Source: Chloroflexota bacterium (GTDB lineage Bacteria; Chloroflexota; Dehalococcoidia; Lucifugimonadales; Lucifugimonadaceae). Taken from it: 64,000 nt of DNA. Each line of letters begins with the position of its first letter. Position 1 is the first letter of the stretch. The stretch is taken from NCBI GenBank assembly GCA_027618835.1, contig JAQCHZ010000010.1, positions 1-64,000 of the forward strand, given 5' to 3'. This document shows positions 55,875-61,138 of this stretch, piece by piece. The notes beneath the pieces were generated by a model, which ran no database searches, had not been told where the DNA came from, and saw nothing but the letters and a program-made list of their open reading frames with translations. The position numbers were made by a program, and so were the translations under genes.

Positions 55875-56219
55875 CTAAGCCTCCCATTCTGAATCGAACG
55901 CCAAACTCATCGGGTACCACCAGTCATCTTCCGCAGCCTGCGGAACCTTCTGCTGATAAGTCGACATCAGATCGTTCCACTCTTTAGCCCGCTTCGAAGC
56001 CGTATAGCTCTGGAAATCACGGCGTGGATCGAAATCGTCGGGAACCGTGCAGTACATGAACAGATGATTTCCGCTTCGGAAAATCTCCATCCGCTCGATT
56101 CCGATGCCCTTCAGCGCCTCAAGTACCTCGGGCCACACGTTGCGGTGGTACTCCTCATACTCGGCAATGATCTTAGGATCGTCTTTGAGGTCCAAAACCT
56201 GTGCAATCGACTTCGACAT
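55875..56219 (-). CDS. L-rhamnose mutarotase family protein
   Basis: The 114-residue ABM-fold protein has YEEYHRNVWPEVLEALKGIGIERMEIFRSGNHLFMYC, in which the His of EYHRNVWPE and the Arg/Tyr set match RhaM. It equilibrates the anomers of L-rhamnose or a related deoxy sugar. It is divergent from a second mutarotase gene at 56493. Confidence 0.85.
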   Translation of the reverse strand: MSKSIAQVLDLKDDPKIIAEYEEYHRNVWPEVLEALKGIGIERMEIFRSGNHLFMYCTVPDDFDPRRDFQSYTASKRAKEWNDLMSTYQQKVPQAAEDDWWYPMSLAFDSEWEA

Positions 56220-56492: not shown

Positions 56493-56816
56493 ATGCAACG
56501 AGTCGGATTCGAGATGAAAATCCACCCTGAAATGGTCGCTGAGTACAAACAGCGCCATGACGATATCTGGCCTGAAATGTCGGAAGCCCTAATACGAACA
56601 GGCTGGCGCAACTACACGATCTTCTTCCGAGAAGACGGCACTCTGTTCGGATACGTGGAGTGCGACGAATCGCACGAGGCATCAATCGCTGGGATGTCCA
56701 AAGAAGACGTAAACCAGCGTTGGCAAGATGATATGTCGCCGTTCTTCCAACTACCCGAAGGCGCCCACGCCGATGAAAACATGACCACCTGGCGAGAAGT
56801 CTTCCACGCCGACTGA
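56493..56816 (+). CDS. L-rhamnose mutarotase family protein, second copy
   Basis: The 107-residue protein shows VAEYKQRHDDIWPEMSEALIRTGWRNYTIFF, the RhaM signature with His and Trp, and an H-rich C terminus. An AAGGACA stretch lies 8 bp upstream of ATG. It is close to the classical RhaM length. Confidence 0.88.
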   Translation: MQRVGFEMKIHPEMVAEYKQRHDDIWPEMSEALIRTGWRNYTIFFREDGTLFGYVECDESHEASIAGMSKEDVNQRWQDDMSPFFQLPEGAHADENMTTWREVFHAD

Positions 56817-58107: not shown

Positions 58108-58140
58108 GATGTCATGAGAAGAATCTTGGAGGAGCGTCAT

Positions 58141-58695
58141 ATGACAACCAATGCAAGCGAGAACACATTCAGGGTTCTCGATCCCACCGCACCACAGTCA
58201 ATTGCGACCGATGGTATGGCAGAACGTCCCGAGTCGCTACAGGGTTTGCGCGTCGGTCTTCTTCGCAACGACAAGCTCAATTCAGAACCGCTTCTCGATG
58301 CTATCTACGATGTGCTTGCCGAACGATTTGATGTCGCCACTGCCTACAAAATAAACAAAGGCGACGCATCTCGACCCGCCGAACCCGATCTACTCGGTGA
58401 CTTTTCGAACGAAGTCGATGTTGCGCTACTCGCAAACGGCGACTGAGGAAGCTGCTCGTCGTCCAGTGTGTACGACTCGCTAAAGCTCGAAGCTCTCGGC
58501 GTTCCTGCGATCGCAATTTGTACCGAACCGTTCAAATCAGGTGCCAAAGCAATCGCCAATCTCGGCGGCATGCCCGACTACCCATTCGCTCTAATCCAGC
58601 ACCCAATCGGCAGCCTAACCCTCGAACAAATCCGAGAACGAGCAATAGAAGCAGCACCGCAGATTCTAAGCTCGCTATTGGCTCGGCGATCCTAG
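58141..58695 (+). CDS. UGSC-family selenoprotein, TGA read as selenocysteine
   Basis: From ATG 58141, which has TTGGAGGAG 6 bp upstream, the frame runs to a TGA at 58444-58446 and continues unbroken to TAG at 58693-58695. The joined 184-residue product reads VALLANGD-U-GSCSSSSVYD, which is the motif of the UGSC (seleno)protein family: selenocysteine 102 and Cys105 form a redox UxxC pair. Domain start QGLRVGLLRNDK and the end GVPAIAICTEPF, GGMPDYPFALIQHPIGSL are typical. A SECIS-like stem-loop directly follows the TGA. The alternative is a Cys-to-stop mutation. The exact reaction is unknown; thiol/selenol redox is inferred. Confidence 0.88.
58450..58487 (+). promoter_or_regulatory. candidate bacterial SECIS element
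   Basis: The mRNA can fold AGCT(58450-58453), GC(58454-58455), a 2x2 internal loop, then GTCGT(58458-58462) with ACGAC(58472-58476), GC(58479-58480), a 3-nt bulge and AGCT(58484-58487). The 9-nt apical loop CCAGTGTGT contains GU, and its G lies about 20 nt after the TGA. Position, size and loop agree with SelB-binding hairpins. Confidence 0.7.
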
Positions 58696-58705
58696 TGCAT
58701 AAACT

Positions 58706-59917
58706 TTGCCAACATTACGACAACTGCCATTAGTCCAGCTTCTCGCCAAAGGCTCGTACCGAGATCTCGTAACCAGCAACTTCACCAACATGATGGGCGT
58801 CGAACTGCGCATCATGGCCCAATCATGGCTGATTCTCGAACTCGGAGCCTCGCAAATCTGGGTCGGAGCCGCAACCGGACTTTGCGTCGTTCCAGCGCTT
58901 GCAATCGGACTATTTGCCGGGGTCATGGTCGATCGACTCGGTGGTCGATCCGTCTTGATATTCGAACGCTTACTCCTCCTACTGCTGGCGGTAGTTACAG
59001 CGGCTGTTGTAGTAGCAGGCGTGGTGAATCTGTGGCAAATAGTCGTTCTATCGATCGTGTCGAGTGCCGTATTGGCAATAGGGATGCCCGCTGGCCAAAC
59101 TCTGGTGATGCACTACCTACCTAAAGAATCGCTCCAGGCAGGAAATTCACTGAATATGGTTGGCGCCAGCCTTGTCCGAGCAGTAGGGCCGCTCGCCGGT
59201 GGGTTTCTTATCGCAGGCTTTGGATTGGGATCACCATTTCTCGCACTCATCGGTTTATACGCACTGTCGGTCTACTTCACTTATCGACTGCCAAGGTCAG
59301 AGCGCAGCAAGCCCTCTGGAACATCAGCCCTCAGAGAGATTAGCGACGGCCTAAAGTACATCAAATCCAACCCCGTACTGTTTCGCGTGATGCTCATAGC
59401 GTTCTCGGTGATACTCAGCGCAGCAATGGTTCCGATCATCCCGGTCTACGCCCGCGACCGGTTTGATGTTGGCGAAACCGGATTCGGAATCATGCTTGCG
59501 GCGTGGGCGGTTGGGCAAGGCGCGTCGGCACTGTGGATAGCGTCTAAGAAACCGTGGGAGCGCAACGCTCCACCAATCTTGATCAGCACGGTTCTATTCG
59601 TCGTTGCCGATATTACGTTCGCACTATCGACAAATTTTCCGCTCACCCTCGCATCTCTGGCTTTGGTCGGCGCTGCTATTCCCGTTTGGGCATCATCAAC
59701 GATAACCCTGCTCCAAACGCAGTCCGATCCCAAGATGATCGGCAGAGTGATGTCAGTGTTCACCCTCTCGCTGCAATCGATGATGTTGGGCTGGTTCTTG
59801 GGCGCTTGGATCGGTACGATCATTGGGAACGCCCAAATGATCATCATCGGAACGCTCATCTACCTAGTCGTGAACTTCGGACTAATCTTCAGCTCCCGAG
59901 ATCTACGACGCTTATAG
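58706..59917 (+). CDS. MFS transporter
   Basis: The 403-residue protein (TTG start, 10 bp after the UGSC stop) has 12 hydrophobic segments: FTNMMGVELRIMAQSWLILELGAS in the N-terminal helix, GLFAGVMVDRLGGRSVLIFERLLL as the loop 2-3 motif, and the second half with VGETGFGIMLAAWAVGQGASALW. It resembles the MFS_3 enterobactin-exporter-like group. The tight spacing suggests it belongs to the selenoprotein operon, possibly exporting or importing its substrate. Confidence 0.8.
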   Translation: MPTLRQLPLVQLLAKGSYRDLVTSNFTNMMGVELRIMAQSWLILELGASQIWVGAATGLCVVPALAIGLFAGVMVDRLGGRSVLIFERLLLLLLAVVTAAVVVAGVVNLWQIVVLSIVSSAVLAIGMPAGQTLVMHYLPKESLQAGNSLNMVGASLVRAVGPLAGGFLIAGFGLGSPFLALIGLYALSVYFTYRLPRSERSKPSGTSALREISDGLKYIKSNPVLFRVMLIAFSVILSAAMVPIIPVYARDRFDVGETGFGIMLAAWAVGQGASALWIASKKPWERNAPPILISTVLFVVADITFALSTNFPLTLASLALVGAAIPVWASSTITLLQTQSDPKMIGRVMSVFTLSLQSMMLGWFLGAWIGTIIGNAQMIIIGTLIYLVVNFGLIFSSRDLRRL

Positions 59918-60232: not shown

Positions 60233-61138
60233 TTGCTACCTGAATTCATCGATACGCACCACCACCTCTGGGACCTCGAAAACAACCCCTACCCGTGGCT
60301 CATGGAACCCATCGATCACTTCGTTGGCGACTACTCACCAATTCGTAAATCGTGGCTAATTGGCGATCTGCACGAAGGTGCAAAAGACATCCCGCTAGTG
60401 AAATCAGTTCATGTTCAGGCTGAATGGGACCACAACGCCGATCCCGTTGGCGAAACCGCTTGGCTGCAGTCTGTAGCCGATGATCCCAACTCAAAAGGCA
60501 TGCCAAACGCCATCATCGCCTACGCGAACCTCTCCGATCCAAACGTCGAAGCAACGCTAGAGCGACACGCCAGCCACGCCAACTGGCGCGGTATTCGCCA
60601 CATGCTCAACTGGTCCGACGACAAGCCGAATTTCCGATTCGCCGAAGCCGGAAACCTAATGAGCGATCCCCAGTGGTTATCTGGATTCAAACTACTCGAA
60701 AAATTCAACGGCTCGTTTGAAGTCCAAATATGGCCTTGGCAGCTTCAGGAAGCAGCCAAGCTTGCCAACGATATTCCCGAAGTCCAAATCATTCTAGGCC
60801 ACGCCGCAATGCCAATCGGTCGAACTCCTGGCGATCTACGAGAATGGCGAAAAGGACTCGAAGCCCTCGGAACCGCCCTGAACGTCTCTGGAAAAATCTC
60901 AGCACTCGGAATGCTCGACAATCAGTGGACCACCGATTCGATCGCACCGTTCGTACTCGATATGATCGACATTCTCGGCATCGACCGCTGCATGTTCGCT
61001 TCGAACTTCCCAGTCGACAGCCTCTTCAGCGACTACAACACCGTTTGGAACGCCTACGACGAAATCACCTCAGATTTCACTGACACTGAGCGAGCGAAAT
61101 TATTCAGCGAAAACGCCGAAAAGTATTACCGAATCTAG
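60233..61138 (+). CDS. amidohydrolase family protein (COG3618-like lactonase candidate)
   Basis: The 301-residue TIM-barrel hydrolase begins at a TTG with LPEFIDTHHHLWDL (metal ligands HxH near residue 9), YPWL, VQAEWDH (HVQ strand), GIRHMLNW, ILGHAAMPIGRTP (His ligand) and CMFASNFPVDSLF (Asp). This is the amidohydrolase 2 group that includes L-rhamnono- and L-fucono-lactonases. A lactonase step would fit the mutarotases and RhamD-like enzymes in the window. Confidence 0.75.
   Translation: MLPEFIDTHHHLWDLENNPYPWLMEPIDHFVGDYSPIRKSWLIGDLHEGAKDIPLVKSVHVQAEWDHNADPVGETAWLQSVADDPNSKGMPNAIIAYANLSDPNVEATLERHASHANWRGIRHMLNWSDDKPNFRFAEAGNLMSDPQWLSGFKLLEKFNGSFEVQIWPWQLQEAAKLANDIPEVQIILGHAAMPIGRTPGDLREWRKGLEALGTALNVSGKISALGMLDNQWTTDSIAPFVLDMIDILGIDRCMFASNFPVDSLFSDYNTVWNAYDEITSDFTDTERAKLFSENAEKYYRI

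Follow-up and report, generated by a model that had tools for sequence, protein, structure and literature searches.

A UGSC-family selenoprotein gene of a Chloroflexota genome and its near-constant upstream partner: a putative two-component selenium reductase with a GrdB-type selenocysteine segment

The UGSC family of selenoproteins has been on record since about 2006-2008 (2008 Global Ocean Sampling study, PMC2398784), and in aquatic microbes its members rank with the most abundant selenoproteins (PMC2398784, PMC9402790). A likely thioredoxin-like fold has been assigned to the family (PMC2398784; PMC13188914), and a 2008 paper gave the name 'Unknown_1' to a conserved domain found in fusion with UGSC (PMC2398784). 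In glycine reductase, binding of the substrate and release of the substrate's amine are the work of the selenoprotein GrdB (review PMC13188914). In a literature search that was not exhaustive, UGSC and GrdB/PrdB stand as separate families with no stated relation between them, and no biochemical data on UGSC proteins were found.

The locus described here lies in a window of 64,000 nt, the whole stretch of DNA that was analysed, which is contig C21, positions 1-64000, of a Chloroflexota genome assembly (2.41 Mb, 41 contigs, 89% complete). The UGSC gene, split at its selenocysteine (Sec) codon by a standard gene caller, is preceded by a gene without an entry in the family libraries searched, which ends 33 nt 5' of the UGSC start (Table 1). 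New here are this near-obligate partner, a GrdB-type Sec segment in UGSC and a SECIS element found family-wide with covariation. A first-pass annotation, made from the letters of the sequence, had described the UGSC gene; it mentioned neither the conserved upstream partner nor the fusions at other sites of this genome, nor a relation to GrdB.

Table 1. Features of the UGSC locus, in coordinates of the window.
Feature	Position	Strand	Remarks
Partner gene, first of the pair, 372 aa	56989..58107	+	No described family; AF2 model, pLDDT 88
Shine-Dalgarno TTGGAGGAG 5' of the UGSC start	58126..58134	+	Direct reading of the sequence
UGSC family selenoprotein gene (predicted)	58141..58695	+	184 residues with Sec102; NF041046, PF24696; AF2 model, pLDDT 92.4
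In-frame TGA, predicted selenocysteine codon Sec102, GD-U-GSC motif	58444..58446	+	Codon shared by 115 of 121 UGSC relatives and by L079
Cys105 codon TGC, second residue of the UxxC pair	58453..58455	+	Three codons 3' of the TGA; Cys in 98% of UGSC relatives
Bacterial SECIS-type apical hairpin (predicted)	58458..58476	+	GUG loop, 58466-58468; apical stem with one C.U mismatch
MFS transporter gene	58706..59917	+	PF07690 and PF05977; 11 nt after UGSC

From its ATG to the terminal TAG, the UGSC frame is open except for the TGA at codon 102. The read-through product matches the model 'UGSC family (seleno)protein' (NF041046) at 131 bits (cut-off 125, residues 35-179) and PF24696, end to end, at 176.2 bits (cut-off 25, residues 11-179). 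A single family thus spans both sides of the TGA, as had been proposed from the UGSC-like text on its flanks, and the family membership proposed with it is now backed by two curated models above cut-off. In the family alignment the TGA falls on the Sec of the UGSC motif, with a Cys three residues later. Gene calling with table 11 did produce the anticipated split into two fragments (58114-58446 and 58468-58695), and the strong Shine-Dalgarno claimed ahead of the ATG is present. Judged by its sequence, the gene is a genuine, intact UGSC-family selenoprotein gene. Compared with the family as described (NF041046; PF24696; the 'UGSC-containing protein' of the 2008 Global Ocean Sampling study), it has the same full-length match, the Sec at the motif and a SECIS 3' of the UGA. 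The motif reads UGSCSSSS, versus UGSCSxCS in many relatives, and nothing else distinguishes the product, which is an ordinary stand-alone member of the family with its partner upstream.

The TGA is conserved across many phyla (Table 1), and homologue alignment, proposed in the first-pass annotation as a check, thus agrees with its reading of codon 102. Six of the 121 relatives are without it: in L108, L129 and L136 the motif is CGSC or CAGC, TGC taking the place of the Sec codon, L075 has Cys in a degenerate motif, and L069 and L076 have no Cys there, so that Cys stands at the Sec position in four of the six. The nearest relative found, L079 (Chloroflexi MAG isolate SI053_bin14), is 86% identical in the partner and 83% in UGSC. 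It carries the same TGA at codon 102, and the sequence 3' of this TGA is under strong purifying selection (dN 0.048, dS 0.57), which argues against both a sequencing error and a decayed gene.

The hairpin downstream of the TGA had been described as irregular, with a GU-bearing apical loop at a distance suited to a SECIS. This description is accurate: the loop, GUG, is the family consensus and begins 19 nt after the UGA. The case for a SECIS is convincing only through comparison of family sequences, not through the energy of this hairpin, which alone is unremarkable (z = +0.6 against shuffles). A hairpin whose first two loop bases include a G, at the right distance after the UGA, is present in 110 of 115 UGSC genes, and the same test at offsets of at least 60 nt, in and around the same genes, finds one in 22-61 of 115. 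In the apical stem, which has four pairs, 95% of cells are paired (shuffles, 75%; slid stems, 15-70%), and 62 changes are double-sided (shuffles, 12.6 +/- 2.7). The shuffles take no account of relatedness, and this part of the gene also encodes protein, so these covariation figures are not probabilities.

A search of the genome for selA, selB, selC and selD, another check that had been proposed, found all four, against the refuting condition of their absence. The tRNA-Sec, with anticodon TCA, is on contig C40 (66.4 bits), SelA on C6 (513 bits), SelB on C11 (318 bits) and SelD on C41 (366 bits); SelD has an in-frame TGA of its own, in the context ATCAG-U-AGK. By these matches the genome has the capacity to decode Sec, and together with the TGA of the relatives they support the Sec predicted at codon 102, which the first-pass annotation had inferred. 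All six tested genomes with a TGA-type UGSC have a tRNA-Sec over cut-off. The haloarchaeon Natrialba asiatica (L108) carries the pair with TGC at the Sec position, and a tRNA-Sec search of its genome gave nothing over cut-off. In a sample of 400 genomes of the phylum, a strong SelA match occurs in 39 of the 42 genomes with UGSC; this co-occurrence is weak evidence, because SelA is over cut-off in 321 of the 400. One genome rated 98% complete (G344, locus L057) has a TGA-type fused UGSC, yet a SelA search of it gave no match.

The gene upstream of UGSC is its partner in nearly all loci examined. Of 80 named loci retrieved with the partner as sole query, 71 carry a UGSC gene less than 1 kb away. 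UGSC lies downstream in 64 pairs, upstream in 10 and on the opposite strand in one, loci with two pairs being counted twice. For seven of the nine loci without a UGSC nearby, a genome-wide search located one at another site in each; the other two (L099, L103) stop about 200 nt or less from the partner, at the end of a contig. The chief departure from the pairing is seen in Poribacteria (L083, L097, L098, L102), where partner and UGSC are both present and non-adjacent. What looks like a split partner in Poribacteria lies in a single reading frame and is not a frameshift. In the sample of 400 genomes, UGSC occurs in 42, the partner in 42 and both in 41. Furthermore, the source genome has UGSC copies on contigs C14 and C25, both with a TGA and both fused to the partner; in fused copies, here and in other genomes, a single chain has UGSC first. 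Because UGSC and partner are so seldom found apart, they probably make up one selenium-dependent enzyme. Linkage and fusion point to a shared function, not necessarily to one complex. Since the partner is the domain fused to UGSC in the loci examined, it is probably the 'Unknown_1' of PMC2398784; here it is seen in several phyla and as a near-obligate companion.

Pfam, NCBIfam and PDB-sequence searches with the 372-aa partner gave no family match, and Pfam and NCBIfam searches with all 39 members gave merely scattered chance matches of single members. Its most constant residues are D46, G47, P49, P53, A89, A95, G96, G137, G163, R164, N172, E199, W208 and G216. No cysteine is among them; the best Cys columns are C97 (91%) and C196 (87%), neither of them invariant. 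The fold search gave weak Foldseek or VIA-align matches, mostly to the C-terminal part, with a best Z of 6.2. The folds matched are those of class I fumarase, cyclic amide hydrolase and the Bacillus chorismate mutase type, with Z too low for meaning and TM-scores of about 0.2, and they were set aside as evidence for any of these identities. The partner is also without invariant cysteines able to hold an Fe-S cluster.

The Sec segment of UGSC, on the other hand, leads to a described family. GrdB-type proteins of the same phylum were extended through their own TGA before the profiles were compared. HHalign of the UGSC profile with the GrdB Sec segment gave a probability of 96.2 and a score of 67.4, with Sec on Sec and Cys on Cys, over about 90 residues and on the basis of six full-length GrdB-type sequences from Chloroflexota. 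The controls (20 column-shuffled profiles, the reversed profile and GrdB without its Sec segment) gave at most 24, and GrdE gave 29. The relation is reciprocal: an HMM of UGSC finds all six full-length GrdB-type proteins, and an HMM of the GrdB Sec segment finds 44 of 44 UGSC. Run on about 1,200 neighbouring ORFs, this second HMM has two intact Cys-type UGSC genes as its top two matches. No match was obtained between UGSC and the unextended Pfam GRDB region, because the Pfam model stops just before the Sec codon. Profile evidence thus indicates that the Sec segment of UGSC is related to that of GrdB.

UGSC and GrdB/PrdB (PF07355 and relatives) have in common a strand, UxxC, a helix, E..GIP, a strand and a P(I/L/V)G turn, and UxxCxxC occurs in GrdB and in many UGSC. 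UGSC is, on the contrary, much shorter and without the large N-terminal PF07355 region: this family was found neither in a Pfam scan of the protein nor among the families listed for 44 relatives. A GrdB-family match was looked for in the source genome and none was found. The partner also differs from the partner subunit of glycine reductase. Against 12 GrdE-type sequences (PF09338) HHalign gave a probability of 0.1, and the Pfam search was empty; the partner was rejected both as GrdE and as a relative of GrdB. As it has no detectable relation to GrdE, the analogy with GrdB is limited to the Sec segment. Among the PF07355 loci, L159-L164 indicate that the in-frame TGA has apparently truncated the Pfam GRDB model, which is without the Sec segment. 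Widespread in the phylum are short relatives of PF07355 (L166-L178) whose Sec site reads UPxC or CPxC; they may be of the PrdB type.

In the AF2 model of UGSC, strand and helix alternate in five units, and Sec102 sits at the N-terminal end of the helix that follows strand three. The proteins that this fold matches are generic, of Rossmann-like or flavodoxin-like type; no thioredoxin is among the matches listed, an absence from that list which proves nothing. By PDB sequence there were weak matches alone (a flavoprotein and others), which were taken as chance. With a Rossmann-like model and generic Rossmann/flavodoxin matches, the published 'likely Trx-like fold' becomes doubtful, and the model favours a Rossmann-like fold instead.

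We propose that UGSC and its partner form a two-component, GrdB-like selenium reductase, with Sec decoded at the in-frame TGA and a Rossmann-like UGSC, and give this reading a probability of about 0.6. Ribosomes would read the UGA as selenocysteine by means of SelB, tRNA-Sec and the hairpin just 3' of it. UGSC would be the selenium-bearing half of the enzyme, and the 372-aa protein the other half. By analogy with glycine reductase, a small organic substrate, held largely by the partner, would be attacked by Sec102, which would serve as both nucleophile and reductant. Cys105 would assist; the leaving group would be released, with formation of a Se-S bond between Sec102 and Cys105, and a cellular reductant would then reduce this bond. 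The physical complex, the reductive chemistry and the class of substrate are predictions, while sequence evidence establishes the gene, the decoding capacity, the SECIS, the partner linkage and the GrdB-type Sec segment. With a near-constant partner and a GrdB-like Sec site, an 'unknown redox protein' becomes a defined two-protein system with testable chemistry.

UGSC could also be a general thiol-disulfide oxidoreductase, in which Sec102 and Cys105 work like the CxxC of thioredoxin and keep the partner, then the sole catalyst, reduced. The UxxC spacing is that of redox motifs, a likely Trx-like fold is given in PMC2398784 and PMC13188914, and C97 or C196 of the partner could be the target. 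We consider this unlikely: neither of these cysteines is invariant, the predicted model lacks a Trx-type hairpin, and the profile relation points to GrdB. Moreover, a near-strict pairing with a single partner and as many as 29 copies per genome better fit a dedicated enzyme. Handling or detoxification of a metal, metalloid or peroxide by the pair, with Sec102 as metal ligand or peroxide-reactive site, would be in line with the action on metals suggested for several selenoprotein systems of recent description (Sao, Tso; PMC13188914). This is rather improbable, as no recurring metal-transport or regulator genes lie near the pair, which is accompanied instead by catabolic enzymes and organic-solute transporters, and at the invariant positions of the partner Gly, Pro, Asp, Asn, Arg, Glu and Trp predominate, not the residues of a Cys/His metal site.

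A different objection concerns the TGA itself, which would be a real stop if the gene were a decaying pseudogene or contained a sequencing error. A hairpin that alone is no stabler than its shuffles would be expected in this case. Such a stop has next to no chance of being right, and was ruled out by the TGA in 115 homologues, the covariation of the SECIS and the independent genome L079, with the same TGA and purifying selection 3' of it; the full Sec machinery in the genome also speaks against it.

It is possible, and we suggest it tentatively, that UGSC and partner represent a new class of selenocysteine-dependent reductase, related to glycine and proline reductase, with a new, undescribed substrate-binding subunit and diversified into numerous copies across Chloroflexota, Proteobacteria and other phyla to act on many organic substrates. 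The genome of Betaproteobacteria bacterium RE-9nov16-207 (L157 / G406), a MAG of about 5.2 Mb, contains 29 UGSC over cut-off, all 29 with TGA, and a tRNA-Sec. Copy numbers as high as this suggest diversification of the substrate. If the bin is clean, this is an unusually Sec-rich genome.

Neighbours of the pair include SDR, CaiB, CoA-transferases, acyl-CoA dehydrogenase, peptide-type ABC transporters and LysR. They are too diverse for the substrate to be named by gene context, and this route to a substrate was abandoned; together with the high copy numbers, they fit a predicted role in the catabolism of organic matter. At the present locus, the MFS gene is possibly co-transcribed with UGSC and lies outside the claimed enzyme; in L079, the DNA 3' of the pair also matches the MFS-gene region. 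Two adjacent rhaM-like (L-rhamnose mutarotase) genes on opposite strands (55875-56219, minus; 56493-56816, plus) adjoin the pair, and downstream of it an amidohydrolase at 60233-61138 has weak similarity to fuconolactonase.
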